Of a DNA stretch of 64,000 nucleotides, positions 566-53,012 are shown one piece after another (position 1 is the stretch's first letter; every line of letters starts with the position of its first letter). The position numbers and the translations under genes are program-made. The notes beneath the pieces were generated by a model. The model was not told where the DNA came from. It saw only the letters and a program-made list of their open reading frames with translations, and ran no database searches. This DNA comes from Platerodrilus igneus (Eukaryota > Arthropoda > Insecta > Coleoptera > Lycidae), in NCBI GenBank assembly GCA_036346225.1, contig JARFIW010001104.1, positions 11,930,001 through 11,994,000 of the forward strand, written 5' to 3'.

Positions 566-669
566 AATTTAAACAGAATTAATCAGCAAGTAATCTATAC
601 AAAAACTTCTCTATACGGAAAATCTTAAAGCTATTATATACATAAAACTTAACCTGTAACAACTTAAAA

Positions 670-3600
670 CTAGGTGAAATAGAAATCGTCTATTTCTCGA
701 TGTCTCCAGGCGAACGTATGGACAGTTCCGGGGATAACAAAACGTTTATCGTCTTCCTCAAATAAGCTAATCTCATTTATGAGTTTTGTGAATAGCTCAT
801 GCTTAGAGCTCCTAATAAATGTCATTGTAAGCCTGAGAGCACTTGTATTATTTTGATCAATATCCGTAAAACTATTCACAGTTATGTTTTTCACTACACT
901 ACGGCTAACGCCTTTAATTTTTCTAATGTCCTTTTCACTTGTAATACAATTTGACTCTACTTCCGACAAACTCTAGAACCAAATCACCGTTTATTTCGTC
1001 CTTAAGCTTACCCACCACCTTCTTATTAACTAAGGGGATATTATACTTATTGTCTGGAGGATAATCACTGGTGTCAAAATTGTTTGTGTTATTGCTAATA
1101 TCTAAGTATGTCTTCTGTTTGTACACTATAAACTAACGAATCGGTGTCTGTATAGAGTAGTTAAATTTGATCATCATACATACGCCGCATAACATTGTAA
1201 TGGAAGACGTACATTAAACTTTTAGATAAATCTAAAATAGAAAATCCTGCGTATATCGGTTTATTGTACGTCACTTTCACTCGGTCCATTTGTATGATGA
1301 CCAAATTCTCGTTAAGCACAGTAGAACTATTAAAGTTCGGGCGGGCTATTAAAGTACTCGCGCACAATTTTTTGCCTCCCGGTTCCCACCGAGTCACAAT
1401 CTTCACATCGATACGTTTGTCTACATTCTCCATGGTTTTGCCGAATATTGCGTTGTTCATTAACTTAAAAAAGTCCTTTTCAAACGTACTTCTTACTAGT
1501 GTTCGTAGCCCGATGTTTAAGTCTATGTAAGGGGGACCGCTGTGAGCCGGAGACCATTCTTTAAGCACTGCCGGATCACATAGTTCTTCATATTTTCTAA
1601 CGTGGCGAGAAGTTTCGGGTTCTTAAAACCTGCATATGGCGGAGTCTTCGTTTCGGGACAGAAGGGTAAATCGTTATCTAAACCGTGCAGTTCCTCAACG
1701 TACTCAAGATCCACTTCTAATATATACCAGGTATATTGAGAATCTCCCGTTTGATGCCATCAATCTCGGTATCGCTGAACCACCTAAATCCGTCAATGGG
1801 CAGATATTGGCTCATAGCCCACCCGTATAAATTGTTGGCGTCGAGGTACGTCAAGTAGCGTAACGGTTTACTGTTATCGTAATCGTCCATGTATTTATTG
1901 TTGGCTTTTGCGTACCTTCCGCTGCATTGCGTAAGAACTCCCCTTATGCCAGACCTTACGAAGTTGTGCATACCAATGTCAGTTAAGAATTCCAATTTCA
2001 CATTGGTATACTTAAACATTGCGTTTCAACTCAGGCTGGGGGCGGTCAGGTACTGGCACGTGTCGACGTTGTAGGTTTTTATGCAAACGTTTCAGAAATC
2101 TTCGAACACGTCGGCCAACAACAGGACATCCGTCTTTAAATAAATATCGCTGTATTCCACAAGGGCATCCTTCTGGAAAGTTTTCCACACTTTCTGCGAG
2201 CGCCCGTACTCTGTGAAAGAGATGTCGGTGGATGACAGCTTGTTGTAAAAAGTTTCCTTAGGCGGCAAAGATCTCTCATCCAACACGGATTAACCAGTTT
2301 GAATTTTTTTTCCTCGAGGAAATACTTACGCAGTTCCACAAACTGATCAGAATCCAAATTTTTTGCTAGCTTGTCCAAGGACGACGCCATGAACATCAGC
2401 GAGTCAATAAATCGGAGTTAAATGGAGCCTGCATCATTCTCCTCCTCATCACCGTCCATATGATTATCGCCATCCAGTTTAACATTTTTTGTGAACGAGA
2501 TGTACCTCTCCTTATTATTTGGTATGACGTTATCACTTTCTTGATCGCATCCCAGCTCCTTAACTATGAAGTGAGCATCGTACCCACTTAAATTGTGGAA
2601 AATCACTGGGATCAAGTTGGGTATTTTATAATGCAAATTGCAATGGCTATGAGCCGCGAAGCGGAATCTACCCGTCAGGTGGCAGTGGTCTCGCACCCTC
2701 TCTTCCCCCAACGGTTTTTTTGCAAATTTCGCAGTCTACTACCATATAAAAAAGAAGCTCGTCTAACGGTTCAAGCGGTACCATGGGAACCGGCGTCGCC
2801 GTAGATCAATGTAGTAAGCGTAAGACTACGGATCTCAAGGTCCTGGGTTCAAATCCCGACACGGCCGACTGCTTGAAAAATGACAGGTGAGCATTTTTCA
2901 CAAAAATTACGCCCTCGTTCGGACGAGAGGTTACATGGAGGTCCCGTGTGTGAGTGTTGTCACGCACGATAAAGATCCCAACCTTGCCTGGAACGGCAAG
3001 AATTCGGCAAAATTCTAAATTTCCAGGCAACAAAAAACTCGCCTCCTGGCCAATGTAGTACCTTCTGGTAGAGCATTGGAAATATAAATGCACGGTACCA
3101 TAGGAACATTAGTTTTCAATATAGCTCCTATCCGGCGAGCCTCCACCTTCATTTTTTCCATAAAAAACTTTGCAGCATCAGGCCCTCTGTACATCTCAAA
3201 CTTTGATAACATATCGTCGTAACTACATTTGACATAATATGCAAAGCTGTAAGGTGTATGCTTCTGCACGTTGTTTGTAAACAAAGTAAAAGCATCAGGC
3301 GTAGTTAAACTTTTTGGTTTAAGCACTGACTCGAAATCTGCATAAATTAAAAATGGAGTTCGTATCTGTTTATGCATGTTCTTAAATTCCACAATGTTGT
3401 TAAAAGCATTCGACATTTTTGTAATAACATGGTTACACTCATGCTCGGAATGTTTCTGAAGTTCCTCTTCGGTACGGAAGTAAATCAAACACCCGTCGCA
3501 CAACCGTTTATGTTTTTGTTCATTTGACATTTGTCTACCAATCAATCTCCCCAGGTTTTTAATGTAGCAATAGTGGCTGTCTCCATCATCTTGTATATAT

Positions 3601-4772
3601 AACAAATTGATGTGCCGGGCTCTTCTGTTCTTTGTGAAATGCAGCGGCCTCACGATTGACTTGTTTTCCGCACCAAAACCTTTAATGCTGACATTATTCA
3701 ACCGCTCGAAAATCGGAATATCAGACATTTTAACAGAAAATTGAATTCCCTCAAAGTTTAGAGTGGTACTGTAGTGCGGGTATTTAGTTACCCTTTGAGG
3801 ATTTTGGCCAGCAGAATACAGCGCTGCCATTACGGACCATGCAAAGCATGCCAATTAATGGTTCAAAACTCCATTTTCTTTTAATCCATTCAGGTAGATC
3901 GATGTAGGAGGATCCACGGAGCGGTGTGTACTTATTAATGTTAAGTTCTAAGTACAGCACCTTCTTCAAACTCCATCCAGATCCACGTCCTTGAAACTCC
4001 TCAGACTTTACACCCATCTCCCGTGCCATTGACTTGTATACCTCCTTCAGGTATGATGATTGAGTGATGACCAGGCTTTTGTGTTGAACGACTTGATGTC
4101 GTCAACATTTCGTCTTTCGCACATTTTAGTGTACAGCCCAAAAAGTTCTACATTGACCTTCAGCGCGTCCTGGGACTCCAGTTTCTCCTCTACTAACCGC
4201 GCGAAACAATCTTCTTGCTGGCTTAGAAACTCGGTAAACCCAGCAACGTCTGTTACATTTTTGATACAATACGATGCAATTCTAGTCTTAAATGCGGTGG
4301 CAATAATTTCCACCGCATCTTCTCCAGCGTGTGCACGACTTATAGCCAACTTATGCGCGCTGCTGAGTAAATGTGAAGTGTACGTAGTTTTCAACACTTT
4401 TATGTCGCACACGTCACACTTGACCACAGCGATCCGCGATTTCTTGGATGTCGACGGTCCATTATCGCATGCAACTTGAAGTCTAACGCTGCCCGATGTC
4501 AAAGCGTCTTCTGCAAGAGTTGCTAAACGCTTAACCTCTATTGGTGATGCTACCCCATGCTGGGTACGCCGATGTCGAATAAAATTATCCTTTCGAGTAA
4601 ATTTGGAATGGCATATCTCGCAAGCGAACACTTCACCTTCACACTGCGGCCCAACTGCGGGTACTGTTACGGACCCTCCCATACTATGTACGCAGCGGCG
4701 CTGACGAAGCATATCGCTTCGTCTGCTGATGGTGGAATTATATAGGTCGCATGAATTTCTTTTGCATTCCAT
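670..4772 (-). pseudogene. Family-B DNA polymerase of an adintovirus/Maverick-like element, broken
   Basis: Read from 4772 down to 670, this is a protein-primed-type DNA polymerase (DNA_pol_B_2 group), the replication enzyme of Maverick/adintovirus-type elements. In order: a C2H2 zinc finger (CEIC...HRRTQH, about 4590-4630); a region with EEFQGRGSGW near 3980; an exonuclease start with FLIYADFES near 3330; a zinc-ribbon-like CEIC plus RVRDHCHLTGRF near 2680; HNLSGYDAHF near 2570; palm motif A with DANNLY (1825-1842); motif B with NNAIFGK (about 1437-1457); and motif C DTDS (1137-1148). The catalytic aspartates of motifs A and C survive. The frame is broken many times (for example near 4030, 3800, 2710, 2400, 2020, 1715, 1160, 930) and a SINE sits at 2791-3092. 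The family's usual length of 1,100-1,400 residues fits the span. The family is clear from motif order; exact virus group is inference. Confidence 0.82.
2776..3107 (+). mobile_element. tRNA-derived SINE inside the polymerase gene, with 15-bp target duplication
   Basis: A SINE of about 300 bp (2791-3092) begins with a tRNA-like head whose T-arm/B box GGTTCAAATCC lies at 2846-2856, followed by a tRNA-unrelated body and a short A-rich end. It is flanked by CGGTACCATGGGAAC (2776-2790) and CGGTACCATAGGAAC (3093-3107), a 15-bp target-site duplication with one mismatch. Polymerase coding sequence stops at one side and resumes on the other, so the insertion came after the virus-like element had integrated. 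Related copies lie at 11850-12134 (reverse), 24040-24187 and 31590-31842. Confidence 0.85.
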
Positions 4773-5305
4773 TATTTCTGTAATTTGAAAACGGTACTAG
4801 ACACTTGAATAACAACGTGTACGGGTTCTTAAACTTGACTTCTTTTGCTAAAGCAAAAACAAAACGAACAATTGCGCGTAGGGTGCCGATTTATAAACCT
4901 GCGGATGAGTCCATTTAATTAGAGGGGAGCACGCACTTACTTTAAATAAAAATATTCAAGTCCATACGTTTCACTAACATGGGATCTCAAGAATGGAAGT
5001 GACGCGCGTACTTAAATGCGACTTTGAACCAGGTAATTAGATTGCTATACCTTTAGGGTAAATGTTTTCATGGTGAGAGAAGTAGTAAAATATTTTAAAA
5101 CTTTCCAATACTTTGATTAATTATTGAAATTTGAAAAGATATGACTAATAGCCTTGACATATTAATTTTTTTTCCTGTCAGGACTTGCAAAGAGTTTTAT
5201 AAAATCTGCGCATGCGTTAGGTACTGTTATTTAATTTTCTGGTTTCGATGTGACGTCAGATGTGAGAGTGCCGCAAGTAGACGTTAACAGATTAGTGGAA
5301 ATAAT
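4773..5305. promoter_or_regulatory. Divergent intergenic region between polymerase and plus-strand genes
   Basis: A gene-free interval separates the minus-strand polymerase from the plus-strand genes. A TTTATAAA-type box near 4889-4896 reads toward the polymerase, and TTTTATAAAA near 5195-5204 reads toward the plus-strand ORF about 100 bp away. A bidirectional viral promoter would suit the layout, but this is inferred from position and TATA-like words alone. Confidence 0.3.
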
Positions 5306-5978
5306 GTGGAAATTGGTTTTGACTTGTATGTAGATTTACGACCAATACTTCAAATTGTGTGTTGCAATAGAAGCTGCAACAGTTATTCTATCAAATTGCG
5401 AGCCGAAGATTGGAATAACTTTTGCGATCTCCGAGTAGAATTTATGGAGAACCGATTTGCTCAAGATGTTAAACGAATGCGATTATGATTTAGAAGTAGA
5501 AATAGACGACATGCATTTTCAACTTGGTAACAAGTTTGATTTGAGATTGGAAGCAAATAAATGGTGTGTAAAGACTGCTATGGTCAGAAGTGGGTTTCAA
5601 GAAAAAGAAGAAAAGGCGTTTATACTACGACTTACAAAGAGCGTTAGTGTTATCTCTTTGAGTGAACACGAGTTACAGAGATTATTTTTCATGTGGGAGT
5701 TACTAACATATAAATTAAACCAAATAAATAATCGGGAATTTCAACCGTTTTACGATGGATTAGTGTGCTTTATTGCCGACTCTAATTTGAACGATAAATT
5801 AAAGTTAACACAAGAAGAAGAACGAACAAAAATTTTGCTGGAAAGCGATATTCGAGTACGTAATTATCTATTTAGCGATGGAAATAGTCAGAGTTATTTA
5901 GAAATAATCATGTGCAGCCCTGATAGATATGTTAGGGACGTGCTGCAAGCACGATCGCGTTTGAAAATGTGTAAGTAA
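5306..5978 (+). pseudogene. Uncharacterised gene of the virus-like element, one frameshift
   Basis: Two overlapping frames (5306-5488 and 5457-5978) appear to form one protein of about 220 residues broken by a single frameshift near 5465-5480. The N-terminal frame has MEIGFDLYVDLRPIL followed by cysteines; the C-terminal frame is acidic and charged, with no signal peptide or membrane segment. I do not recognise the family. Its place between the polymerase and the PLA2-like gene, on the strand of the structural genes, suggests it belongs to the same element. A host or unrelated transposon gene cannot be excluded. Confidence 0.45.
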
Positions 5979-6329
5979 TGGAAAATTTCAGATAATTCTA
6001 GCTCGGTCATATATAAACATTTTAAATAAAGCGTAAAAGCGTTTATCGAATCGCCTCAGAACTAGAATTCTTTAAATAAAAAGAATGGCGAAGAAAGAGA
6101 CGGTGGTTATCATTCCCAGTAAATTAAGAAGATTTTGTGCAATGAGAACTTTGTTTAAATTATTGTATCGTACAAATTTTGTCAAATCGATATACAGCTG
6201 TAAAAAGTATAAATAGAGATGTTTTACATTTTTATTGTTCATTTTGTTATTGTTTGTTGAAGGGTGCACATCCATGATTGTGCATTCCGATGGGTGATTA
6301 GTTAACAAAACTATAAATAATTTACAATT

Positions 6330-6525
6330 CGAGCTCCACATTCCAAGTTATTCGTATTGTGGTCCTGGAACCCGATTAGAAAAGCGGCTAGCCCGAGGCG
6401 ATCCTGGAATAAGCGAGTTGGATCGCTTGTGCAGGGACCCCGACATTGCATACACTAAGTACCCCGACGGTCTCCCAGCTAGATATCGAGCAGATAAACT
6501 TTTAGAAGAAGAAGCCTGGGGAAGA
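6330..6525 (+). pseudogene. Phospholipase A2-like domain, 5' half of a PLA2/pX-type gene
   Basis: The frame shows the calcium-loop signature YCGPGTRLEKRLARGDPG (from 6355), then LDRLC and the helix with the active-site pair, ending in KLLEEEAWGR at 6525. This is the parvovirus-type PLA2-like domain also found in adintovirus-type elements, where it is fused to a basic pX-like region. In viruses of this kind it acts from the particle on host membranes. Here the codon at 6439-6441 reads Pro where the family has the catalytic His before Asp, so the domain should be inactive. No in-frame ATG is visible upstream (a stop lies near 6297). The gene is cut at 6525 by the LTR-type insertion and resumes at 11071. 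Confidence 0.75.
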
Positions 6526-8073
6526 TGTAACGTTCGGTTTAATTCAACGTTTAGTATTGTATAGTTTACTTTAGCGAGCATATTAAACATGACAATTTGT
6601 GATAAAGGACAGTCAAGTAAACTGTACACTTTTTCAAAATTGCGAAGAAGGCTAGAAAGTGACAGGAGGGGATTGTCAAATTAATTAAAAAGTGTCGAGC
6701 CGCGTTTTACGTATGGGGTGTGTTTAATTAATCTTTTGTAGGTCCACTCTAACATCCGATGTTATATACCGTCATTGTTATGCCTATAAGATGCCAATTC
6801 ATAGTGGGAGTTTATTTGGATGAAAGAAAAGTGACCTCAGATTACATTTGCCGTACGCTGTAATCAACCGATTTAGTCGGGAACCTGATGAATTAACACA
6901 CACCTATGATAAAGTTAGTTGGGCTGTTGCATTATACCGACACCCACTCTCCTCGCTGTGTCTATAGTGACCTGATTCACCCCACAAACCCTTCAAGGTA
7001 AGCGTTGCACTGTAGTAGTTACTAAGTGACCAAACTGGTTCGCACGCTGGTATTGGGATATTTTACCCCGAACTATAGAATGTTCTTTTGCATCTACCGC
7101 CAGTGAAGCTAAAAGTAGATAGTGTGTTTCGCTCCGTATTTACCCTACTTTCACTGTAGTCAACAGTGTAAAACAGAAAGCCGCTTGTGTGCGCATTGTA
7201 TATCTATTAGTCAGTAAAATTTTAAAGCCGCGATACTTTTCCAAATTGTACCACTTGTTTCGTAACGTAAGACTGTACCAGTTGTAGCGCCTAGATAGTT
7301 CAAGTAGACTTACGTCTACCGTCCACATTGTTACCGGAGGTTTGCATGCACCCGGTGTAACACGCGTGATATTTCGGGCTGTAGTCTACACTCTTTTGGT
7401 CGTCAAACCTAAGAACCCGTACTGCCGTGAGGCCCAGGTGCATTCAATCCTACCCCCCATCTTAGAAATAATTGTACTCATAAGTATATCTTTGGTAGCC
7501 CTGGCCAGTGCGAACTTACACCTAGTTGTTACTTTTGGTTAGTTATCATAATTAATTTGATCGTAGTTGTGGCGTACTCAATATACGCCGTACCTACATT
7601 TGCTTATATACACCTTTGTTTATGTTACTTACTGTACTTAATTAATGTGTTCTTTTCAGCCATGTGTTTGTAAATAGAGTTAAGAGTATAATCCAGGTGC
7701 ATTATTCTGTTGTAGTAATTTGCGTGAGTAGGGTGACTCAGTACATTCTACACCGTGAGTTTTCTTTACCTTCATATTTTCTTATTATAACAAGTGCAGG
7801 GGCGTTTGCTCGACCAGTAACGAGACCCCGATTATATCTAACACAGTGACATTACTGGTGGTGCCCACCTAATTTTGCCGTCATACCCGATTTTTGGCAT
7901 ACTACCAAGTTTACGACCCATTATAATTGTCATCTTAGGGCATTTAGCAATCCCGACCTACGACTTTTATCATACCCACCCCTCACCGGCTAGAGCTAGG
8001 CCGCGCACGGATTCCGATCCGTCCCTTGGTGTCGTAGTGCTGAATTGGCCCGTAACAAAGAGTTGTTACATGC

Positions 8074-8718
8074 CGAAAATCGGCTATGTATCATATTTGG
8101 TTTAAGTTTAAATTTGTGAGTAAATTCCCGCCATTATTTCAAATAACTTGTGCATTTCCGTCATTTCTGACAGTTGCGTTTGCGCAAAGGAATGCGCAGA
8201 CGCGGAGTGATGTCGCAAGTGCGGGGTGTGTGACACGACGGATTAGCCAACGAGACGTCGAACAGTGACGTTTACCTGTGTCGTTCCTTTGTCTTTTCTC
8301 TTTCAGAATGTAGGTTTCCCTTTATCTCTACCTGATATCGTTGCCTTCACCTTATTCCTCCGTCCTGCCTACAAACAGAAGAAGAGGGAAGACAGTAAAT
8401 CTGGATTCAACGATGGTATAATGAAACCCAACCCCAAACAACGTCCAAACGAGATACATGGAAATCAACATGGCTCCTGCGCAAGGATGACCGCAAAATC
8501 GTGAAGAGTTCCACATTTTTGAGTGAGTACATTTTATCTCTTTAAGGAGCATCTTGTATCACTGTAAACATATTTGGTACGTAAAACAATTTGGCAAATT
8601 ATGTCGTATTATTTTTATTGTGCAATATTGTAAACGTGGAGCGTTCCAGTGTCGCCAACTGTGGAAGTGGCTCTGAACACGCGCGCACGGGATTATAACA
8701 GTTGCCGGGAGTATAACA
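8074..8718 (+). repeat. Direct repeat copy 1 (LTR 3' part)
   Basis: This 645-bp stretch matches 10431-11070 at high identity, with scattered substitutions and small indels, from CGAAAAT(C/T)GGCTATG to GAGTATAACA. It is probably the 3' part of a 5' LTR that starts at 6526. Short ORFs in it on both strands are mirrored in copy 2 and look non-coding. Confidence 0.7.
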
Positions 8719-10430
8719 ATAGCGCCTAAACTTTTGTTGAAAAATTTTGTCTTCACCTCTGATTTATCTTATAAGCGTTAGTTTTAAATATATTTGTAGA
8801 AATTGGGTTTTTGTTCACTCAAATATAATAAAAAATAATTTTAAAAAATTTTTAATGGCTTTTGAATAGAAGAAATATAATCTGGCAACATTGCATTTGG
8901 CAACATCTATTTTATGTTGGAATGGCATGCAATGCAGCTGAAATGTCAATCTGAGCATTTAGTCAGCCATGTTTGAACAGTGATTGTTTACTTCATATAT
9001 GTTATTTCTAAGTTAATTGGCTTTTTCTCTTATAAAAACAGTGTATTTATATTTTAAATTCTCTTAAATAATTACTTAACCTAATTTAGGATGAAACTAA
9101 AGCATATACTTTTCAAATGTGTTTAGCAAATTACACTACCTCACTTTAAACATGTGTTTGGATTAAATAATTCTTTATGTAAGTATTTTAGTCATAGATA
9201 AAAAGCTATAGAATTAAAAAATTTCCTTAAAAATACACTAAATTTAGTTAAATAGCTATTCTAAACCTCAAATTTCTTTAGTTTTTTAGGTTAACTTATT
9301 AAAACCGTTGTTTAGATAACTCATATATTATCTTACTTTACCATAATTCTAAAGTGTTTCCTTACAATCTAAATAATTAACTATAGGTTACGAATTTTTC
9401 TTAAAGAAAATTTTGTCCCTAAATACAGATTACGCAACTAACTGAAATTTTTAGCTTGATATACCTATACCTTCTAAAACACTATAGTAAACTTGTTTTC
9501 GTTATATCTGCTTTCTTAAACACTACAATAATGAGCTTAATGATAATGTTTTGCATTGAAGTTCATTTAAGAGTTATCTAGTTGTTTGATAAATTCCTCG
9601 ATATAAAAGCAATATTTTAATAATTTGGAATACTGTTTTTTCTATACTTTTATCGTTAAAATATTGTTTTGTGTAGCGAGCATAATTTTGTTTTGATAGC
9701 ATATTTTTTAGATATATCGATATTGCAACGCAGCATTTTAAAATCTATTTGGTCTAGGCGAGACTGGTCATCGTAGTTGGTTGCTCAGTAGTATGTTAGT
9801 CTAGACGAGATTCATGAAGGGTTGGTCGCTCAGCATTACGTAAGTCTAGACGAAACTCGTGGTAAGTTTGTCGATCTAGTAATTTTTGAATCATTTTTTT
9901 CAGGATGATATTGAAGTTTTTCTTTATTAGTCTAGGTGAAGCTCAAAGGAGGGTTTGTCACACTAGCAATTATATGCGTTGTAAGATATATTTTTTTCGT
10001 GTTCTTCAACAATTTTGTTATGAGTGAATCGAGCCTTAATTACCGCTATCTCTTCATATATCGATGTAGACCATACTAGGTTGGATAAAAATATCTTTAA
10101 AATTGCTTAAACTTTGCGTACATTTAAAATTTTTCACGTTTTATTTCTTTAACGATTTAGCTAATGTTTTGTCCCTACTATGAATTAGTTAACTTTATTT
10201 AGCCATTTCTTTTTTTTATACAGCACTTACCTTCTACACTTTTGCCTCATTTACCTTAAATTAGCTATCTTTTGCTGCCGCTTAACTTTTTCTTGAATAT
10301 ATTGTTAGTCACAGGTCTGTTTATTATCTAGGTCCCCCAGTATAACTTTGTCGCTTCATTTAATTAATCCTCGCACCTTTCCTATAACAGATTATTTTGT
10401 TTTCAGTATTTATCTTACGTTGTTTTATTT
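8719..10430. other. AT-rich interior of the LTR-type insertion, no genes
   Basis: No reading frame of interest is visible in this 1.7 kb. It begins ATAGCGCC just after the presumed LTR, a weak primer-binding-site candidate. It is very AT-rich, and its only clear structure is the tandem array at about 9752-9985. Confidence 0.4.
9752..9985 (+). repeat. Short tandem array of about 46-bp units
   Basis: Four degenerate units start GTCTAGGCGAGACT (near 9752), GTCTAGACGAGATT (near 9800), GTCTAGACGAAACT (near 9843) and GTCTAGGTGAAGCT (near 9931). Each continues with a TTGGTCG/TTTGTC-like core. A related unit, GTCTAAGCGAGACTCG, lies at about 58226-58270 inside the deleted gypsy element. Confidence 0.55.
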
Positions 10431-11070
10431 CGAAAATTGGCTATGTATCATATTTGGTTTAAGTTTAAATTTGTGAGTAAATTCCCGCCATTATTTTAAA
10501 TATACTTGTGCATTTCCGTCATTTCGGACAGTTGCGTTTGCGCAAAAGGAATTCACAGATGCGGAATGATGGCGCAAGTGCGCGGTGTGTGACACGACGG
10601 ATTAGCCAACGAGACGTCGAACAGTGACGTTTACCTGTGTCGTTCCTTTGACTTTTCTCTTTCAGAGTGTAGGTTTCCCTTTATCTCTACCTGATATCGT
10701 TGACTTCACCTTATTCCTCCTACAAACAGAAGAAGAGGGAAGACAGTAAATCTGGATTCAACGATGGCATAACGATACCCAACCCAAAACAACGCCCAAA
10801 CGATATACATGGAAATCAACATGGCTCCTGCGCAAGGATGGCCGCAAAATCTTGAAGAGTTCCACATTTTTGAGTGAGTACATTTTTTCTCTTTAAGGTG
10901 CATCTTGTATTACTGTAAACATATATGGTACGTGATACAATTTGGCAAATTATATCGTAATATCTTTATTGTGTAAAATTGTAAACGTGGAGCGTTCCAG
11001 TGTCGCCAACTGTGGAAGTGTCTCTGAACGCGCGCGCGCGGGGTTATAACAGTTGCGCGGGAGTATAACA
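10431..11070 (+). repeat. Direct repeat copy 2 (truncated 3' LTR)
   Basis: Second copy of the repeat at 8074-8718. It ends GAGTATAACA directly against the resumed PLA2/pX reading frame, which fixes the right edge of the insertion. Confidence 0.7.
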
Positions 11071-11617
11071 GAGTTAAGTCCAAGTACGCAAAGTTTGATG
11101 AAAAGGCTGCAGCTTGGTTTGTGACAAACGCTATGAAAGCAAAGAGAAAAATGGGTATGGGCTTAAAGAAGAGAATAAGTTTCAAAGGAAGATTCCTGTG
11201 AAAATACGATCTGCAATAGACCGAGTTGATTCCAACAACTTGAAAAAGCTACTTGACGTCGGGCTTCTAATTGGCAAAAAAATCATAAAAGGAGCTGGTG
11301 GGAGAAGCAAAATTAAAGTCCCACGTATTATACCCGTTCCACAGAAAGGAGGTTTTCTACCATTGATTCCGATATTCGCAGGACTAAGTGTTCTTGGAGC
11401 CTTAACTGGTGGCGCTGCGGGGATAGCTAAACCAGTAAATGATGTCAAAACAGCCAACGAGCAGCTTAAGGAGAGAACGGCACAACAGACCTATGAAAAC
11501 CATTGCCCTTGGGAAAATGTAAATGGACTATTTTTAAAACCATACAAAAAAGGGGCCGTATTATTTTTGAAACCATACAAAGAACGCGAGTGGTCTAAAA
11601 AAGTATCAAAAAACTAA
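11071..11617 (+). pseudogene. pX-like basic core region, 3' half of the PLA2/pX gene
   Basis: The frame resumes with a Lys-rich stretch including KAAAWFVTNAMKAKRKMG, then shifts frame near 11180 into an open frame to 11617. That frame has a basic part, a glycine/hydrophobic segment (GGFLPLIPIFAG to GGAAGIAK, about 11350-11433) and two copies of FLKPYK near the C-terminus (from about 11527). The hydrophobic Gly-rich segment and the repeated LKPYK motif are hallmarks of pX-like (adenovirus core-protein-like) proteins of adintovirus/Maverick-type elements, thought to be minor virion components. The protein is split from its PLA2 domain by 6526-11070. Confidence 0.72.
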
Positions 11618-11854
11618 ATAAGTTACCTCGAAAAGCTCTCACCGATGTGGATATAAGGAACTGCGCATCTAACATTCCTCATTTTCGCGATGTGTTTTCA
11701 TGAGATAAGTTACAGAAGATTAGACCGCGTGTTAACGAGTCGGGTGTGATTAATTTGGATACCACAAAAGGATCAGTTAGTTACACATTGGGTGGGATAC
11801 CGAAAACGTGGAAATAGTTTGTTATACCACGATTCGTTTGGAGACTTGAGCCCG
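11610..11854 (+). pseudogene. Adenain-like cysteine protease remnant
   Basis: Just after the pX-like gene, three short frames show parts of an adenovirus-protease-type (ULP1-fold) cysteine protease. IPHFRDVF lies at 11673-11696, THWVGY with the candidate catalytic His at 11783-11800 in another frame, and DSFGDL at 11831-11848. Such proteases mature capsid proteins in adenoviruses and adintovirus/Maverick elements. The copy has at least one stop (TGA after DVFS, near 11700) and one frameshift, and its C-terminal third, where the nucleophilic Cys would lie, is missing beyond the SINE junction near 11850. Confidence 0.65.
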
Positions 11855-12134
11855 TGTATTTATATTTCCAATTCTCCACCCGAAGGTATTACATTGGTCA
11901 GGAAGCGAGTTTTTCTTACCTGGAAAATTTGGAATTTTGCCGAGCCCTTGCCGTTCCAAGCAAGGTAGGGATCTTTAACGCGCGTGACAACACTCACACA
12001 CGGGACCTCTATTTTACCTCTCATCCGAACGAGAGCGTAATTTTTGTGAAAAATGCTCACCTGTCATTTTTCAAGCAGTCGGCCGTGTCGGGATTCGAAC
12101 CCAGGACCTTGGGATCCGTAGTCTTACGCTTAAA
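11850..12134 (-). mobile_element. tRNA-SINE, antisense copy, between protease and capsid-like genes
   Basis: This is the reverse complement of the SINE at 2791-3092, with the B box as GGATTCGAACC near 12093-12103. About 25 bp of the tRNA-like 5' end is missing at 12134. It cuts off the protease reading frame and lies just upstream of the capsid-like gene. I see no clear target duplication. Confidence 0.75.
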
Positions 12135-12143
12135 AGGTATAAA

Positions 12144-12990
12144 TGATGGGTGGTAGTAATAATCGCAGCTTAAATCTTCACGGTGGTGAAAACGTCAAAC
12201 TTGGAAGGCTTAAATATGAGGACGTACCCAAATTGGATGTATTTGGAAGTTAGAAATTAGACGAAACCATAATAAAAGAAGATTATTATACATATCTTCC
12301 CTTTACATTGAATGCAAATAACAACGATCGAATTTCAATTGAAATCCAGAGCAGTGATAACATCACATACCCCCATGAAAGTTTCATATTTATAAGGGGT
12401 ACCTATAAGCCTACGGAAACATTAAGAGAAGCAACAACTGTAGATCCGATCAGAGCTGCAGAACTAGATCCTAAAGCTTACAAGTTTACTAGGAATGCGC
12501 CATATTTTCCGTTTGAAGAAATTCAATACAAATTGAGTAATAATCAAATAGTTGATGTCTGCAGAAATCCGAGGAATACTCGAACCATTAAGGATTTAGT
12601 ATCCATGGAAGAATCGGAAATAAAATCTATTGCACACACCGCTTGGAGATCTGAAACCATATTCCGAGATGGGCAGTTTAGTTGCGCCATACCGCTAAAA
12701 ACCATTTTTGGGTTTTTCGAAGATTACAAGAAAACTATCGTCAACATGCCTCAAGAACTGATTTTAATCAGATCCAAATCTGATGTAAACTGCTACAAGT
12801 CGATTGGAAATACAGTAACGTTCAAAATACAACGTATTTAATGGGAGGTCCCGCATATAACATTAAGCGACTATATCAAGGCGTCTCTGCTATTGGGAAA
12901 TGCAAAATCAATCATCTATAATGGCAGCATTCAGAAAGCGTGCTGGAGATTAATCCGGAAACTAGCGACCTCACCTTAAGCAATATTACC
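12144..12990 (+). pseudogene. Capsid-like protein of the virus-like element, broken by stops
   Basis: The frame begins at ATG codons at 12144-12149, meets a stop near 12247, and is open from 12308 to 12841. Features include NNNDRISIEIQSSD, FIRGTYK, a middle FPFEEIQYKLSNN, and the segment SCAIPLKTIFGFFEDYKKT with ELILIRS. After a stop at 12839 it continues with VPHITLSDYIK. This belongs to a family that recurs in arthropod genomes beside type-B polymerase, PLA2/pX and protease genes. By position and beta-rich character it is the likely jelly-roll capsid protein, but that role is inference; only family resemblance and context support it. Three or more disruptions make it non-functional. Confidence 0.6.
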
Positions 12991-13013
12991 CTGGTACTAG
13001 AAGACTATACAAT

Positions 13014-13448
13014 TTGTTGGTTTATAAAGACATTAGACCTGAAGATGGTGATTACAACTTGAATGAAGATTTACCAAATTACTTGGACATGATCAAGTCA
13101 ACATTGAGTTTTAAAAGAAAATTTAACCCATACACATTGCAAGATTTAAACGAGTTTCCGACAAATAACAAAAAGTTTGAAAATTATGTGCTGCAAAATC
13201 TAATGAAATTTCGGAGGAGTTCAAAACGAACATCCTCAAGGAAGAAAGAGGTATTAGGTCTACCCACTCAGATATATAAAAGTTTAAACTCCAATCGTAT
13301 GCAATATGTCTACTGGAACAATGTACATGAATTAATTGATCGGTTAAAATTACTGATTACATCCAACCGAGCTGGAAATACTAGCGAAGAGAACATTAAC
13401 GAGATGGTGTCCATAATAGAAGAGTTGAGAGAAGGTATAATACAATGA
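13014..13448 (+). CDS. Conserved-looking ORF of the virus-like element, 144 aa
   Basis: An open frame of 144 codons, basic in the middle (RRSSKRTSSRKK) and ending in helix-prone sequence VHELIDRLKLL and VSIIEELREGIIQ. Proteins with the C-terminal pattern HELxDRLRLL...IIEELRE recur next to the pX-like and capsid-like genes in insect virus-like elements, so I take it as part of the same set, possibly a minor virion or packaging component. That function is a guess. It overlaps no other gene and is the longest undisturbed frame of the element; a start upstream, in the degraded end of the capsid-like gene, is possible. Confidence 0.5.
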   Translation: MLVYKDIRPEDGDYNLNEDLPNYLDMIKSTLSFKRKFNPYTLQDLNEFPTNNKKFENYVLQNLMKFRRSSKRTSSRKKEVLGLPTQIYKSLNSNRMQYVYWNNVHELIDRLKLLITSNRAGNTSEENINEMVSIIEELREGIIQ

Positions 13449-13475
13449 GTCAGTAAATAATTACACGGTTTTAAA

Positions 13476-13985
13476 ATGCTCATCGACCGCTTCGGGCGTT
13501 CAGAAGCGTAAAGATGCTGATATTCGACATGGACCTCCAGGTCGAGAATTTCTGCTAACGTCGAATGGTGATGGATACGACATGCAGTAAAGAAGGATAG
13601 TGAATTCATCAGATCCGAAAGAAGATTATGATCTAGTTAATCAGAGAAGCACTATAGTATTCAAGCCTGGAGAAGAAACAATTAGTTTTCGTAAAAGAAT
13701 GCTAGTTGATGTAATGGAGCCTAAAGACGATAGGGATTATGTTTCTAAAAAGTTTGCTGTGAATCTCGTGAATCAAACCTTTTTATACTGTCTAAAAAGT
13801 TCTGATAGTTTTCAATGCAAGAAACCGGCGTATCACAATATTTGCTCACCCAGTTGAAGACGCTGATGCAGCTAATAAACAATATGTACATGAAAAAATC
13901 TGAATTTTAAAACGTTTATACAAGATTTTATCAATTTGACTGCGGCTTCTGACACAAACGAAAAAGAGCTCGGTCTCGCATTATC
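13476..13985 (+). pseudogene. Fibre-like repeat protein remnant of the virus-like element
   Basis: Starting MLIDRFGRSEA at 13476, the frame is soon broken and continues in others to about 13985. It contains GPPG and a threefold motif of the type Pro/Glu-x-Asp...(D)xVxxK: PKEDYDLVNQ (13606), PKDDRDYVSKK (13718) and PVEDADAANKQYV (13849). Repeats of the form DP.D..DAVNKKYVD mark fibre- or tail-like surface proteins in related virus-like elements, which suggests a host-attachment structure (inference). Frameshifts near 13510, 13600 and 13850 inactivate it. The right end abuts the minus-strand ORF at 13984. Confidence 0.5.
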
Positions 13986-14298
13986 ATCGAGTATGAGGCT
14001 GCGACCTCTTAGCTGCTAATTCTCGGTGCACAATTTTGATTGAATATTGAATTTCATCAAAACTGTCTTGGATCACCTGTTGTTGATCTAAATCAGCAAC
14101 CTCTACACAAGCAACCATTTCGTAATGAACTTGTTCAAATTTATCTACTATGTTTGATAAATCGATAAAACGAACATCAAAGGCAACAAAATTATTCTCA
14201 GGATCAATTTGAGCTGCTTGAGCACATTTTAATAAGGCTTGCGCCTTGCGCATTAACATGTTACGTTTATTTGACAATTTTTCAATTTCCATTGTCAC
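13984..14298 (-). CDS. Possible BEL/Pao-type Gag N-terminal fragment, 104 aa
   Basis: The protein starts MTMEIEKLSNKRNMLMRKAQ and is helix-rich, with the pattern of short basic helix, spacer, and FEQVHYEMVACVE...SFDEIQYSIK. This resembles the N-terminal coiled part of BEL/Pao Gag proteins that precedes the DUF1759-type region. No protease, reverse transcriptase or zinc knuckles are seen nearby, so if correct it is a fragment. A host protein is an alternative. It meets the end of the virus-like element at about 13985, which may be an insertion boundary. Confidence 0.35.
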   Translation of the reverse strand: MTMEIEKLSNKRNMLMRKAQALLKCAQAAQIDPENNFVAFDVRFIDLSNIVDKFEQVHYEMVACVEVADLDQQQVIQDSFDEIQYSIKIVHRELAAKRSQPHTR

Positions 14299-15685
14299 AA
14301 ATTATGGAAAACAATCGGAAAGTAAATCACAATTATGTAAACCCCAGTAGCAGTTATCTACTTGCAAAAAATGTTTATCTAACAAAAATTGCACAGCTAT
14401 CAAACATGCGAATCTCAGAATACAAAACTATCAACAAATACATTTAATAGATCCTCTAAATAAATTATCAAACACCATAATGACAATTCTACCTGCTTGC
14501 AGTGCTAAAATACGATCCGCTCACCGTAAAATAGTAATCTCTCAAATGTGGGTAGCCACATACAAGTTATTCACCTCTTAAATACCAAGAAGATTTTAAA
14601 GGCTGAACCCTAATTCCATGGAATGCAGTTAGATACATCTGGTGCCACCCTCAAGCAGGTTTCAAGATGTTTAAAGGGATAGCAACAGACAGGAATGTCA
14701 AACCCTCTATTCTGAAGACTAGTTAGTTCAACACACAGGGGTTGACCTTTATGTAATTGTACTAAAAATACCTTAAATATTTTTGAAGTCACTAAGCTAT
14801 ATATAATACTATTTTTACAGCCGTATTATTATGTGAGCGGTAATGTCAAATTTAATTGAACTTTTTCACTAATTTCTAACAAAATTCGCCGTCATTTACG
14901 CAAATATTTATGCAAATATCTTACGCTAATGATCGCCGTAAATTACGCGTCAACACAAGATACAAAAAACACGCAAAACCAAATTACGTGTTTTTATGGA
15001 CTATAAATCCACTAGATTAATTCAAATTCAGCTCGAAGAACCAAATGTACTTTGATTAAATTAATCAAGCCTAAATTTTTGAAGGACCAGTACATAAATA
15101 CATATGTACACACACGTGACCAAGTATTTCAATTTATATGTAAATTCAACACACTCACCTGAACAAAACACATCACGTTCCAACTGTACTCTCAACACAA
15201 CACATCACGTCCTTTCGTCTCTAAGGATGGCGGCAAACAGCCCGGAATGTCCGTTTTCCATGCACCAGGTAAACAAACCACAGCGGGTGGTCGAGAGTAG
15301 TGGTTTCACTAAATTAAAATACTAGTCTATCCGCGAACAAAGTTTACACCCACAAATTTACAATATAACCATATTAATTCTAAACAAATACATTAGCTAA
15401 AAATTTGGGTAAGGGTTTGTGTTAAGGTAGGAGTAGTCGGGAAATTCCGGGTTAAAGCGTATATCTCGGGTGACCAAAAAGGATTTAAAGATCGAATTAA
15501 AATTAAATAAACAAAAACGAGTTAAAATTAAATAAATAAAAAATTTAAAAGTACGAGGTAACGGGGTGTAACTTTGTAAGGGGTGGTTTGATTTAAACAA
15601 GTCCGAGGGTTTTAGATTGCCCGGGAGATTTTGTATCAGGTTATTATACCTAGTCCAAGAAAACTTTTATTTGGATTAGATATGG
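14299..15685. other. No recognisable genes
   Basis: AT-rich sequence with only short spurious frames. The stretch around 15420-15640 contains TTAGATTGCCCGGGAGATT, and TTAGATTATCCGGGAAATT occurs on the far side of the gypsy element near 23530. This suggests a common repeat on both flanks of that insertion. Confidence 0.4.
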
Positions 15686-17124
15686 TGTAATTTTAATATT
15701 TACCTACCGCATGAGGGTATCCAATTAACAATAAATAATAAATAACAGGACCTCTAACACCATCGTACCCTCACGTTTCGGGACGTTGCCTCGCAAGCTG
15801 CAGCAGTCGGTGAAGGGGGGGTTCATTAAACAAACACACTGAGACGAAAATTCGATTGTTTTATTGAACGAGCTACTAACTAAAACTTCAACTAATTACA
15901 TATGCATAACAAAATATAAAGTAAATAACCATATGTACAAAAGGGCGCCACCATGGGAATTAAACGGCCCATGGACCAATCGCGGTAATAGCTCTCGTCG
16001 CACTTTGTTCGTGGGCGATGAACCAAAATGGCAGAACAGAAAATAAGTCACTTATAGTCTCCGGCTAGCACAAACACAACTTAACTAAACTTAACTAACA
16101 AACATATTTTGAATAGATACAGTTCTAGGTGTACACACCCCAATACAAAAATTTATTAATGCTACCCTATTCTAATTAACTTGCATAGTGCGACGACCCT
16201 TTTTAACCACGGGGTCATCTACACCATGAAAAATACGACCTTCTCAAGGGTCAAATAGTACCGTAACTTGACTTCGGGCCTGAGCTTTGCATTCTCAGGT
16301 AGTCTCGTGGATTAGTGATTAACGACCTCTGACACCGTCGAAACACAATATAATAGAAGACCCTTCTAAAACGATGCGGTCTCCAAAGCAATAATAAAAC
16401 GGATCAATTTACTTGAACTGGGCATTCACCCGGAATTGTATTTTATGGAAGTCGACAAATACTGTTTTTAAACAAATAACTGACTTATGCTGCATAACAC
16501 AGCCTTGAGTTCATAGTAATATCACATATACTAATTACTTACTCAGAGAAATAAATAACTTAAAACATAACGGCCCGCACTTGACTGCAGAGAAATAAAC
16601 ACATCACTAGTAACCGTTAGCTTTAACCTCTAACGCGTCTGGAAATAAACAACCCGATTCCCACCGGCTGGCCTCCTTATATACATTTTGGTTAATTGAA
16701 AATAACCCCTTTCTTGACGCTCTTACTCGGCTTAGGATGCGCCGGTCGTAAATCTTTAATTTTAATTAAAACTGTCAATGCCTAAGATAACCACAACCGT
16801 AGCTCTCAGAATTGATTTTAGTTGAGTGCTCAGCTAATTGAAAAATTGCTTCAGACCACCCTGACATAAATAGGATCCTAAAGCATGATTGACATCTAAT
16901 CATAGATATGGACTAATTTGACATGTTTAGTGCCCTTAAAGTAAGTGCCTTTAGAAAATTGATTAACTCTTGGATTAGATCTTTCTGGGAACTTCGCTGA
17001 GAAGCTACTTGGGTGATCCTGCAGCCGCTACATTTCTAATAATTAGCATGCTAAAATTAAACTAGAAACTAACTATTTTTAGGAATACTAGAACTATTAG
17101 AGCTTATTAAAACAGTATGTTACA
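15686..17124 (-). repeat. 3' LTR of the gypsy element
   Basis: A 1,439-bp terminal repeat, near-identical to 21995-23434, with a handful of substitutions and single-base indels. Confidence 0.9.
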
Positions 17125-17466
17125 CAGCCCCCCTCGAAAAATTGAAATTGCTCTTAGGAATTTCAAGAAAATTGAAAAAAAAAAATAAAATAAATGTAGA
17201 AATTAACACATCCAACCGCAATTATGTTTAAGACAACTGAGTCTTTTCAGAAAATTGGCGGAAGGAAAAATAAAAATTGGAAAAATAAAATATTAGTGAG
17301 GTTTTAGGTCTTGGACGTGGAACACCCTAGCGGTTTTCCGTCCATGGAAGATAGTCTATAAGTGGTAGAACCTAAAACTTCCATCACCTTTGCTTCTAGG
17401 AACTTCGGGGCTAATTTTTATTGAAATGTTTAGAAGCATCTGATAATATAAAATTGCGCTTCCACA

Positions 17467-18690
17467 CTAAATCCCTACTTTGAAATTTAATGGTCTGCGC
17501 CTTAAATTGTACGAGTGCGTATTACGTTCATACGCCAAATGTATGTTCTTCTGAACTTCTTTAAAGATGGGCGATAATTCATTAAGGTCTTGAACCAATT
17601 GTTCTCGAGTATCAATTGCTAGATCCTCTGGATTTAAATCCTTTAATTTATTATAGAATTCCCCGGACAGAGGAACCGTGCGTCCAAAAGCTAAAAATGT
17701 TGGGGAATATTTTGTGGATTCATGAACAGCATTACGAAGCGCATGGGCAATTTTGTGAATATTATCGTCCCAATTCTTATGAGAATCTTGAATGTAACTG
17801 CGAATGGCAGCTCCAATTACCTTGTTAACGCGTTCTACATAATTAACTTGAGGATGGTAGCTGGCGTTAAACCAAACCGAAGGTATTTTATAATTTGTCA
17901 TGAGATTGGAAAATAAATTACTTTTAAATTGGGGCCATTATCTATCATACAAATTTGAGGTACCCCATATACCAAAAATACAAAATTTTCCAGGTAATTA
18001 CAAATTTGTTTTGTTGAAGCGCTGCGCATGGGATGCAATAAAGTGAATTTTGTAAACCAGTCAGTAACAACTAAAAGGTAAGTATTCCCCAATTTCGAGC
18101 GCGGAAAGGGCCCCATTAAATCAATCGACAAACATTGAAACGGAAATGAAACTTTTTTCTCTTTGCCCATAAAACCATAATGGTTGAACGTGCTGGATTT
18201 GCTTTGGCAGCACGTAACACATTTACTAATGTATTTAGAAATATATGACCGCATTTTAGGCCAGTAATAGAGCTCTTTGATTTTTGTATATGTTTTAAAT
18301 ACACCCAAATGGGCCGAAACTGGATCATCATGGCATTCTTTTAAAATTTGTGCACGGCATGATTTCGGCACTATTAACTTCCACTCAATTAAATTGGCTT
18401 TGATATTCAAATTATTCGGAATAAACTTATACATTTTATCATCTTCTACTCTCCAATCTGGATATAGATCTGGCTTTTCCTTAATATTATTTAACATGTT
18501 TTTGTACCAATCCTCGACCTCGTGTAAAGAAAAATTTAAAGAATTAATAGCATAGGCTCCACTAGGAGCTCGGGATAATGTATCTGGTACCACATTAAAT
18601 TTACCCTTCCTGTGGATAACTTCGAAATCAAATTGTTGGAGTTTCACACTCCATCTAGCTAAACGTCCCGCAGGATCTTTTAAGTTGTGG
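17467..18690 (-). pseudogene. Gypsy integrase domain
   Basis: Read from about 18600 down to 17467. It has the HHCC zinc-binding region (HDDPVSAHLGVFKTYTKI to CVTCC, near 18220-18320), the first catalytic Asp in SIDLMGPFPRSK (near 18110), the second in the IDNGPN block (near 17930), and a C-terminal part with FLAFGRTVPLSGEFYNKL. The enzyme would insert element cDNA into the host chromosome. A frameshift at about 17898-17901 separates the catalytic core from its end. Confidence 0.82.
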
Positions 18691-20330
18691 AGCCAAATTA
18701 AAGAATGATGGTCCGTAATGACCTTAAAATGAGTTCCTTCAATATATGGTCGGAATTTTGAATAGCAAAACACACCGCCAAAAGTTCCCGTTCTGTGACT
18801 GAATAATTTTTCTCTGCTGAATTTAAACTGCGAGAAGCATAAGCAATTACATGTTCTTCGTCTCCTTCTCCTGAGTTAAAACACAACCTACGCCGTAATT
18901 TGAGGCGTCACATTGTAAAGAAAAACTTTCGAAAAGTCAGGACTCCTTAAAATAGGAGCCTTTGTAAGAACATCTTTAATTTTTCAAACGAAATAAGAGC
19001 CTCGTCCGTCCATTTAATCGCTTGCGATTTTCTCTTTCCCTTTAGTAAATCATTAATAGGTGCTATAATTGTGGCAAAATCCAAAACAAAACGCCTATAC
19101 CAAGAACACATACCGGTGAAACGTTTTATTTCAGTGGCTGTCTTGGGTTGAGGAAAATTTACAATTGCGTCAATTTTTGCTGGGTCAGTTCGGAGACCAT
19201 CTTTATTCACAATATATCCCAGATATTGTAACTCTGGTTTACAAAACTCACATTTTGAACTGTTAATTGTTAAATTAGCGCCTTTCAACTTCTCATACAC
19301 TTCGTTCAAAATTCTAATATGCTCCTTAAATGTGCTTGAAATAATAATTATATCATCTAAATAAACAAATACTGATTGGGATAATGAAAATCAAAAATAG
19401 AGTCCATGAGCCTCTGTAATGTGCCTGGAGCATTGGCCAAACCCATCGGCATTACATTATATTGAAATAATCCGCGCCTTGGGACAGTAAAGGCTGTTTT
19501 TCCTTGCTTTCGTCACTCAAGGGCAATTGCCAGAAAGCTTTTTAAATCGATTGAACTGAGATATTTCGCATTGCGTAATCTATCAAGAATGTCATTTACA
19601 AACGGAATGGGATACGCGTCTTTTTTTGTAATTGAATTTAATCGTTTAGCGTCAAAACATACACGAAATTCACCTTTTGCTTTTTCTTTACTAATAGCAT
19701 GGGGAGTTCCACGGGCTATTGCTTGGGCTAATAATGCCTTGTTCAAGCATTGCATCAATTTCTTTATTAGCATGTTCCAGCATCGCCGGTGATAATGGAT
19801 AATACCTTTGTTTAATTGGTTCAACGTCTTCCGTTGTAATATGATGTGAAATTTTAGTGGTTCGGCCTAAGGTAGGACGATCCAGGGATTGAAATAAAGA
19901 AATAACCTTGTTTAATTCAAATTTCTGGTCTTCATTTAAATCGGCCATGACTTTAATGAAATTTAATTTATTCGTTTCCGCAGAATGAGCATAAAATTCA
20001 TTTTTTGAAAAATCTACTTTCAATTCAAATAATTGACAAAAATCAATCCCTAACGTTAGGATACACTCTATTGAGTCGGAAACTAAAACATTTAAAGACC
20101 GAGTAACCCGTTTATAGTCAAGGGCAAATTAATTGAACCTAAAATTGATTGTGCAGTGCCATCCGCGGTTGTTAATATAGACGTTTTACATTTTAATTAA
20201 TTCTAACTTATATTTATCCAATAAACACAAACCATGTCTGCCTAAAATAGAGGTATTCGCGCCGGAATCCAACAGTGCAGTATAAGTTTCCTTAAATATC
20301 TCGATATTAATATAAGGTCTTGTATCATCT
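18690..20330 (-). pseudogene. Gypsy protease, reverse transcriptase and RNase H region
   Basis: Read downward. The aspartic protease motif LLDSGANTS lies near 20255-20285. The reverse transcriptase follows with FRVCFDAKRLNSITKKDAYPIP near 19650, YLSSIDLKS near 19555 and the catalytic YLDD at 19352-19363. The thumb has YLGYIVNKDGLRTDPAKI near 19190 and the RNase H part has VIAYASRSLNSAEKNYS near 18820. Together these copy element RNA into DNA. Frames change near 20030, 19690, 19510, 19310 and 18890, so no single intact polyprotein exists. Confidence 0.85.
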
Positions 20331-20472
20331 TTTACTTTATAAAAATTTGAAAAAACCTTAGATGATTTACAAAAATTCTTAACTTTTACTAACCAATCCG
20401 ACCACGTCTTTTTGTCAGCAGCAATATTATTAAACGAAGAAAAGCAACGGCTGACTACGCGCTTTCCTGTCC

Positions 20473-21834: not shown

Positions 21835-21994
21835 GACTAACTAAAAGGTAAAAGCCAACAATAACGAAACTTGTTCCTAAATCACTAATATTAAACTGTA
21901 ATTCTGCCTAACACTAAATAAAAACAAAACAATCTAAAAATTCGTCCGTGTGTTGTTTACCATAATTACAATTTTAACCACGTTAATGCGCCAG

Positions 21995-27200: not shown

Positions 27201-27710
27201 TACAGGTTCTCTAGCTTACCTACTTGTTTCATACTTCTGACATTCCACGCTCCAACTCGCAGAATGTTCACGGATTTTTTTCTTACTTTCGGATCACATC
27301 CCCCGAAGTAGTCCTCACCCGGAGATCCAAATGGGGGACTATTTTACCTCCGGAATTTTTTACACCAGAGGATGCCATCATGTTTACCAATAATTTCTGT
27401 ACGCAGTGTACTTGGGGAGGTAATGTGGTGGTTTCCCATTGCCTTCCACATCGCGGTAGTGTGTCCTAGAATTTCATACCGACCCCTATGGTCTCTGCCA
27501 CTCTAAGTCCCGAAAAAGCTGCTGCCCTCTTTCGGGGACCTGTCTTAGTCTGGTTCCTCACTAAAGACCCCACTAATTTGGTTAAACCTATAGTTCAGCT
27601 CTTTAGCTCATTGAAACGCGCAAGCCATTCTACCTGTTCAAGTATTTTAGAACGTCGTCAAAGTGCAGGTCCGTTCAGAATGGATTATAATCCATTGTGT
27701 CAACTACTCC
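24250..27710 (-). mobile_element. RTE-like LINE with endonuclease and reverse transcriptase, mutated
   Basis: On the minus strand a 5' untranslated segment (27710-27230) precedes an APE-type endonuclease. It is seen at 27080-26880 (VGIVMRKKIGRRVENYL) and 26834-26442 (FGLGTRNYRGNRLVEFCDKNN; RYQIDYIIVRQRF). The reverse transcriptase follows: GKAPGTDKVQAETLK near 25870, FGFRRNRGTRETI near 25580, IGFVDLEKAFDNV near 25480 and catalytic FADD at 25176-25187. A C-terminal part ends near 24624. The style is that of RTE-clade elements whose endonuclease is often annotated as craniofacial-development-protein-2-like. Several frameshifts and stops inactivate it. Related fragments lie at 1-565 and 62165-63488. 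The exact 3' end, about 24250, is uncertain. Confidence 0.8.
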
Positions 27711-52828: not shown

Positions 52829-53012
52829 TACATGAGGCGAAGTCTAGCTAACGCTACTCAAACTTAACCTCAACTAATTACAATTTTTACAAATTTTAAA
52901 TAATTATTTGCAATAAAGAAATTGTGGATAAGTAAACACAACAAGTGACTTGTAGTTAGTCTACAACAATTACATTATGACTATTCAAGAAATAGTTAAC
53001 TGTATGGTAAAG

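Follow-up and report, generated by a model that had tools for sequence, protein, structure and literature searches.

The 64,000-nucleotide stretch of the Platerodrilus igneus genome analysed here (C1032:11930001-11994000 of a 2.71-Gb assembly, hereafter the window) holds, at positions 587-15597, what is, judged by sequence comparison, a single decayed Maverick/Polinton element (a giant transposon with virus-like features) that belongs to a large family in this genome. Taken as a whole, the evidence is best explained, with little doubt, by a Maverick/Polinton that inserted here and decayed by point mutations, transposon inserts and deletions, within a family in which polymerase lineages vary on a shared element. 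The element itself is of a known kind, and the part worth following is the exchange pattern: one capsid set is found with several very different polymerase genes, as if the polymerase had been swapped, most likely because polymerases were recently exchanged on a shared chassis. The chances seem about even that a family mobile now or recently repeatedly exchanges its polymerase gene as a cassette between the divergent intergenic region and the terminal repeat. All paralogues come from the same genome; L-numbers denote fetched paralogue stretches and C-numbers contigs or copies.

Eight copies with polymerase and capsid were picked by eye, and palms were compared in six of them (C1420, C1010, C767, C131, C766 and C1452). 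The first four share one palm type (94-98% nucleotide identity), and the palms of C766 and C1452 differ from this common type and from each other (66-73% nucleotide identity, synonymous difference 0.78-0.88). The capsid pieces of the same six copies are 95-98% identical, with a synonymous divergence (dS) of 0.05-0.15, and the ratio of non-synonymous to synonymous divergence (dN/dS) of the capsid gene among six copies is 0.05-0.32. A comparison using two pieces of the polymerase covered C1010, C131, C766, C1452, C439 and C1236 (C1420 and C767 were left out, their second PolB piece not having been fetched). Across the 15 pairs among six copies, synonymous differences are 0.06-0.14 in the capsid gene, whereas in the polymerase they are 0.56-0.95 in 13 of the 15 and 0.43 and 0.15 in the remaining two. 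In C439 and C1236 a polymerase of the window's type lies on the strand opposite to the common capsid gene, about 5 kb away from it.

The point at which identity rises above 90% was located in the intergenic DNA between PolB with its zinc finger and the element gene ORFy, or at the start of ORFy. In C439, the rise comes no more than about 240 bp past the point where the zinc-finger match ends (from L066:3201 to about 3440). From there on, BLAST gives 78-91% in pieces, and most bins taken from L079 are at 91-97%; compared with C1010, in which some of the intergenic DNA seems to be missing, the rise becomes visible only further on. On the other side of the C439 polymerase lies a 148 bp terminal-repeat sequence that shares 91-93% identity with six other copies; four of the six also match over another 48 bp at 83%, and the 260 bp between the end of the polymerase gene and this repeat piece match none of the six. 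Across the integrase region, the four copies that could be compared share 92-97% identity, and C766, whose fetched stretch had no match there, is therefore uninformative on the integrase. Identity is not perfectly two-level, since C131 and C1010 have palms that are 98% identical but are 86% alike from the PolB N-terminus to the intergenic DNA, and C1452 shows against C1010 a 90% patch inside PolB (one 200-bp bin), which fits repeated recombination.

The family from which these copies were drawn is large. A search with the capsid piece found the window and at least 149 other places at 87-90% identity, many inside a 442-residue open frame (best 150 of 6438 candidates scored), and a search with a polymerase piece of the window found the piece itself and at least 149 places at 60-76% (best 150 of 9976). 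Profile searches gave at least 115 matches for PolB (best 87 of 6269) and at least 150 for PLA2 (best 150 of 4448). Because only the best candidates were scored, these counts are lower bounds and the copies are biased towards the window's type.

Assembled from stretches of different copies read separately, the gene order of the relatives runs from a terminal repeat through PolB and its zinc finger (minus strand), ORFy, PLA2/pX, protease, a penton-like gene and the capsid gene to an ATPase, ORFx, fibre, integrase, a small open reading frame and a terminal repeat. Capsid, ATPase, ORFx, fibre and integrase keep this order in all eight right-arm stretches (first integrase piece in 8/8, second in 7/8). 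The open integrase frame L036:3538-4464 matches PF00665 at 2.6e-10; the relatives' integrase frame also matches integrase structure 2x78 at 6.3e-4 and shows no chromodomain profile match. The A32/FtsK-type packaging ATPase of the relatives, deleted in the window, matches PF04665 at 5.6e-7; in L031:1011-1880 this domain is preceded by a psq-type helix-turn-helix (PF05225, 3.7e-9). The penton-like frame L010:2347-3084 occupies the expected penton place, and the small frame after the integrase (L063:1518-1913) has no Pfam match.

The ends of the element were also examined in the relatives. Inverted repeats are evident from an identity of 77-85% between each of the six left-end stretches and the outward end of right stretch L030; the six lose similarity near one point, with the same eight end bases in five and a variant in L040, and an exact 15-base end adjoins PolB in L037, L038 and L039. 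A 20-base version of the end is found without mismatch at 282 places in the genome (140 forward, 142 reverse; a backward control had 0). Among the 100 places listed there are 37 inward-facing neighbour pairs less than 30 kb apart (5.7-25.6 kb, 19 of them spanning 14.3-16.6 kb), no outward ones and, by eye, four neighbour pairs in the same direction. Five of ten chosen terminus pairs, all 15.2-15.8 kb long, were tested for target duplications, and all five have a perfect 6-bp duplication outside AGT...ACT ends. Paired inward AGT...ACT ends with 6-bp duplications agree with the description of vertebrate Mavericks in the excerpted text of PMC8097293.

The main rival to exchange, which we regard as unlikely, is that nothing was exchanged and that gene conversion homogenised the virion arm while the polymerases kept old differences. 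Either process yields similar arms beside different polymerases, and the higher-identity patch inside PolB of C1452 could be read in this sense. However, the similar part includes both the integrase region in the four comparable copies and the 148 bp of terminal repeat beyond the polymerase in C439, so that nearly the whole element except one gene would need converting. A recombination-free history in which the capsid evolves slowly and the polymerase fast under constraint would suit the unequal amino-acid conservation of the two genes, but can be given virtually no weight: the contrast is one of synonymous differences, in 13 of 15 pairs of the same copies, and the intergenic DNA adjoining the polymerase is again 78-97% alike, depending on the pair. 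Constraint as the sole cause was rejected on these two grounds.

Two further alternatives concern the element rather than the exchange. Unrelated repeats could have come together by chance, the polymerase from one element and the virion genes from another, as might be suspected from the 4.5-kb insert that separates the parts in the window and from a window polymerase that is far more diverged from the common copies (synonymous difference, pS, 0.8-0.9) than its capsid gene (pS 0.28-0.34). Yet polymerase and virion genes stand head to head in all four copies whose middle was fetched whole (C1010, C131, C766 and C1452), and C439 and C1236 pair a window-like polymerase with the common capsid gene as described above; this highly improbable explanation was rejected on such copies, which carry both modules in the same order. 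The other possibility, that an exogenous adintovirus genome was captured once and that there is no transposing family, is rather improbable: the gene set is virion-like and the capsid dN/dS is as given above, but many copies share the end motif, target duplications flank all five pairs tested, and viral and transposing life styles are not mutually exclusive.

Several points nevertheless weigh against our interpretation of a Maverick/Polinton with exchanged polymerases. The exchange was measured on eight copies and the window, C439 is the one copy in which both flanks of the polymerase gene were seen, and the terminal-repeat piece shared there is only 148 bp long. None of the polymerase pieces of the window matched a polymerase profile (Pfam, and PHROGs for three pieces), the penton-like protein matches no Pfam family, and the names pX, ORFy and ORFx are based on paralogues or resemblance. 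Single-sequence structure predictions for 12254-12838 (capsid piece) and 5457-5975 (ORFy) had a mean predicted confidence (pLDDT) of 32 and were left unused. As for the termini, the duplication test of the five pairs covered their ends only, not the genes between them, and only four of the 37 inward pairs (C90:6783687, C170:5447278, C427:3110608 and C646:2246367) contain, by eye, a capsid or polymerase place among the matches listed.

The window copy itself is an older relative of the compared copies. Its synonymous difference from them is 0.28-0.34 in the capsid gene, 0.37-0.49 in pX, 0.55-0.59 in PLA2, 0.53-0.63 in ORFx and 0.77-0.88 in ORFy; for the fibre gene it is 0.25-0.44 in the larger piece and 0.03-0.13 in a 30-codon piece. 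For the polymerase it is 0.82-0.92, except to C439 and C1236 (0.62-0.63), and for the palm pieces 0.76 or more. The parts recognised in the window are as follows.

587-641, minus strand: sequence just past the PolB 3' end, the leftmost recognised part; 55 bp with 84% identity to the corresponding place in C439.
691-3957, minus strand: polymerase B gene, split into many frames; tblastn to paralogues, 46-80% amino-acid identity in pieces.
2815-3095, minus strand: insert in PolB resembling a short interspersed nuclear element (SINE); 91% identical to 11852-12132, with a further copy upstream in L045.
4047-4772, minus strand: N-terminal zinc-finger part of the PolB gene; zf-C2H2 at E 3.7e-4, below the cut-off, and paralogues (34% amino-acid identity in the same tblastn comparison as PolB).
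5288-6005, plus strand: ORFy, element gene, frameshifted; 35-42% amino-acid identity to L043:2334-3133 and to the same gene in 4 other copies.
6202-6528, plus strand: first part of the PLA2-like gene; piece 6298-6561 matches PF08398 at E 2.6e-7, above the curated cut-off.
6526-11069, no strand: insert of about 4.5 kb splitting the PLA2/pX gene; L043 is contiguous here, as is L044.
11070-11617, plus strand: rest of the PLA2/pX-like gene (Gly-rich, LKPYK); 86% nucleotide identity to L043 and L044.
11704-11851, plus strand: adenain-like protease, first part only, frameshifted; 49% amino-acid identity to L043:4198-4422.
11852-12132, plus strand: SINE-like insert, 281 bp, at a deletion of about 980 bp; adenain end and penton-like gene lost.
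12143-12938, plus strand: major capsid protein, first ~60%, frameshifted after 12841; PF21738, 87-92% nucleotide identity to relatives.
12935-12938, no strand: junction of a deletion of about 2.0-2.3 kb (capsid end, ATPase, ORFx start), from comparison with right stretches.
12935-13448, plus strand: 3' part of a further open reading frame (ORFx); 53-68% amino-acid identity to four relatives.
13441-13990, plus strand: fibre-like gene, broken; 77-82% nucleotide identity, together with ORFx, to L029-L036.
14000-15386, no strand: insert of 1.39 kb resembling a solo long terminal repeat (LTR; TG...CA), in place of the integrase arm; at least 39 other matches at 92-97% (best 40 of 1124 candidates scored).
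15450-15597, no strand: what is probably left of the right inverted terminal repeat; short terminal-repeat matches.

Profile support inside the window comes from the PLA2 and capsid genes, and pX, adenain and ORFx were confirmed through paralogues. The capsid piece 12308-12841 matches PF21738 (double jelly-roll-like) at E 7.6e-18 and the whole paralogue capsid L010:874-2199 does so at 2.9e-73; the PLA2 part is 73-75% identical in amino acids to five copies. The paralogue protease frame L043:4198-4422 (adenain-type) matches PF02902 at 3.1e-4, marginally over the cut-off, and PF03906 is matched weakly, below the cut-off, by the fibre piece 13796-13900 (E 2.9e-4) and at 1.5e-6 by the open paralogue frame L030:2741-3412. 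No Pfam match was found for ORFy, protein searches of a large database gave no match for the capsid piece or ORFy, scans of viral_contigs found no relative, and a sequence search at E 0.1 with the whole L010 capsid frame brought up no solved structure. On the polymerase side, the zinc-finger part is 60% identical in amino acids to that of C439 and 33-37% to four others, three of which reach 47-49% over a shorter piece. The open 1036-residue paralogue frame L003:976-4083 matches PF03175 at 2.1e-31 and a phrog endonuclease VII profile at 3.1e-4, and the part of it with endonuclease VII profile matches is represented in the window by frames 2418-2796. Two places with a window-type polymerase (C90:5235091 and C99:4777717) lie in open frames of 1354-1361 residues, and many common-type copies have shorter ones (about 1031-1039).

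The break points of the window copy were placed against its relatives. Position 6525 corresponds to L043:3522 and 11070 to L043:3520 at the 4.5-kb insert, which contains a pair of 0.65-kb repeats (8062-8718 and 10419-11070, 92%) 2.36 kb apart. At the smaller deletion, 11853 corresponds to L043:4301 and 12130 to L043:5281 (982 bp against L044); at the larger one, 12937 corresponds to L029:131 and 12935 to L029:2309, the deletion being seen against seven of the eight right stretches (the L034 alignment resumes only at window 13402). Similarity to the relatives ends at 13990-13999, directly before the integrase, and the solo-LTR-like insert that follows has no 5-bp target duplication at its ends. 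No integrase was found in the window, except a weak match far away at 43245-43337 (31 residues, 32%, E 7e-5). The probable right-repeat remnant consists of 15450-15517 (74-76%, best E 2.7e-8) and 15566-15597 (E 0.002), with no match in a reversed control. Neither the window nor the adjoining 10 kb on its left yielded a left repeat, and a comparison of 1-2500 with 13000-22000 gave only short inverted matches, none below E 0.066. Matches of L040 in the window or that 10 kb were rejected as a left repeat, and one at 24367-24409 as a terminal match, since both lie beyond that copy's own end. Elsewhere, the 38 bp at 52872-52909 resemble left terminal stretches in four relatives (87%). Since the relatives possess an integrase and inverted repeats, their absence in the window is a loss in this copy, which settles an apparent anomaly: the element looked integrase-less, and its relatives hold the integrase arm lost here. 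Given its point mutations, transposon inserts and deletions, the window copy very likely makes nothing now.

Other repeats lie around the element. Left of 587, positions 1-561 are 89% identical to 26912-27473. A segment resembling an LTR retrotransposon occupies 15685-23434, and its 1.44-kb direct repeats (15685-17124 and 21994-23434) are 99.4% identical, which marks it as a young insert next to or within what remains of the terminal repeat. A pair of direct copies, each about 4 kb long (35216-39184 and 43384-47354), is 99.1% identical.

The first-pass annotation had read 670-13985 as one integrated and decayed adintovirus/Maverick-like element with a polymerase on one strand and PLA2, pX, adenain, capsid, a further frame and a fibre gene in order on the other. 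All these features are present in that order, and the interpretation is borne out: the gene set, order, inserts and deletions were established against paralogues, the ends and target duplications in the family, and polymerase and plus-strand genes, whose constant separation elsewhere would have told against a single element, sit together on other copies in the genome. The bounds move to about 587-15597, within which 2815-3095, 6526-11069, 11852-12132 and about 14000-15386 are later inserts, and the plus-strand gene at 5288-6005 had been overlooked. The integrase and left repeat are indeed missing, as that annotation had said, although a short right-repeat remnant is likely. Of the checks it proposed, profile searches matched PLA2 and capsid in the window but not the polymerase pieces, and the genome search yielded less damaged relatives with integrase, ATPase and inverted repeats. 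As for the name, the strict definition of adintoviruses in the excerpted text of PMC11071296 asks for an N-terminal OTU-like domain in PolB and a hexon reciprocally recognisable by BLASTp; PF03175 is the sole Pfam match of the open paralogue PolB frame, and Maverick/Polinton is the safe name.

By analogy with the families involved, working relatives would have had a protein-primed PolB that copied the linear element from its ends and an rve integrase that inserted the copies; capsid, penton, protease and ATPase may have packaged the element, and the PLA2 protein may have helped entry. Homologous recombination, or template switching, between elements replicating together might have brought about the exchange of the polymerase gene. 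Since one kind of ends and virion genes occurs with several polymerase lineages, the termini would seem to accept them all.

Comparison with known systems, for which we refer to excerpts of the cited papers, places the family among familiar elements. Sf Maverick 1 and 2 of Spodoptera frugiperda (PMC5803895) likewise have a PolB with a weak endonuclease VII match, an rve integrase, an A32-like ATPase, an adenovirus-type protease and a PLA2-bearing CAP protein, so that PLA2-bearing insect Mavericks are already published. In the excerpted text, their authors saw no homologue of the Maverick PY protein (a suggested double jelly roll), whereas there is a clear PF21738 capsid gene here; unlike them, the window copy has no integrase or ATPase and little left of its termini. 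Drosophila-associated adintovirus 1 (14.6 kb; PMC8363768), likened by description only, has PolB, integrase, capsid, protease and FtsK homologues, and adintovirus 2 (13.3 kb) almost the same set. Vertebrate Mavericks (PMC8097293) are alike in their inverted repeats with AG- or AGT-type ends, 6-bp target duplications, two-module layout and mostly decayed copies; they are mostly of low copy number, with hundreds of defective copies in two species, compared with the 282 exact end-motif matches found here. Mixed pairings of adintovirus hexon and PolB classes have been published (PMC11071296), and in Polinton-like viruses of cryptophytes (PMC12220804) polymerase and capsid phylogenies conflict and polymerase replacement was inferred, exchange among polintons of different phyla also being cited there. 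Those conflicts are deep and phylogenetic, whereas the exchange proposed here is recent, within one animal genome, with located switch points; the literature listings searched showed no report of recent polymerase exchange with mapped switch points in an animal genome.

If the exchange is real, several polymerase lineages with mostly saturated synonymous divergence would replicate the same termini and virion genes, and terminus recognition would not be specific to a polymerase lineage. Comparable recombination was inferred from deep trees in the excerpted parts of the cited papers; with its many close copies, this family makes it possible to date recombination between the replication and virion modules and to map where it switches.

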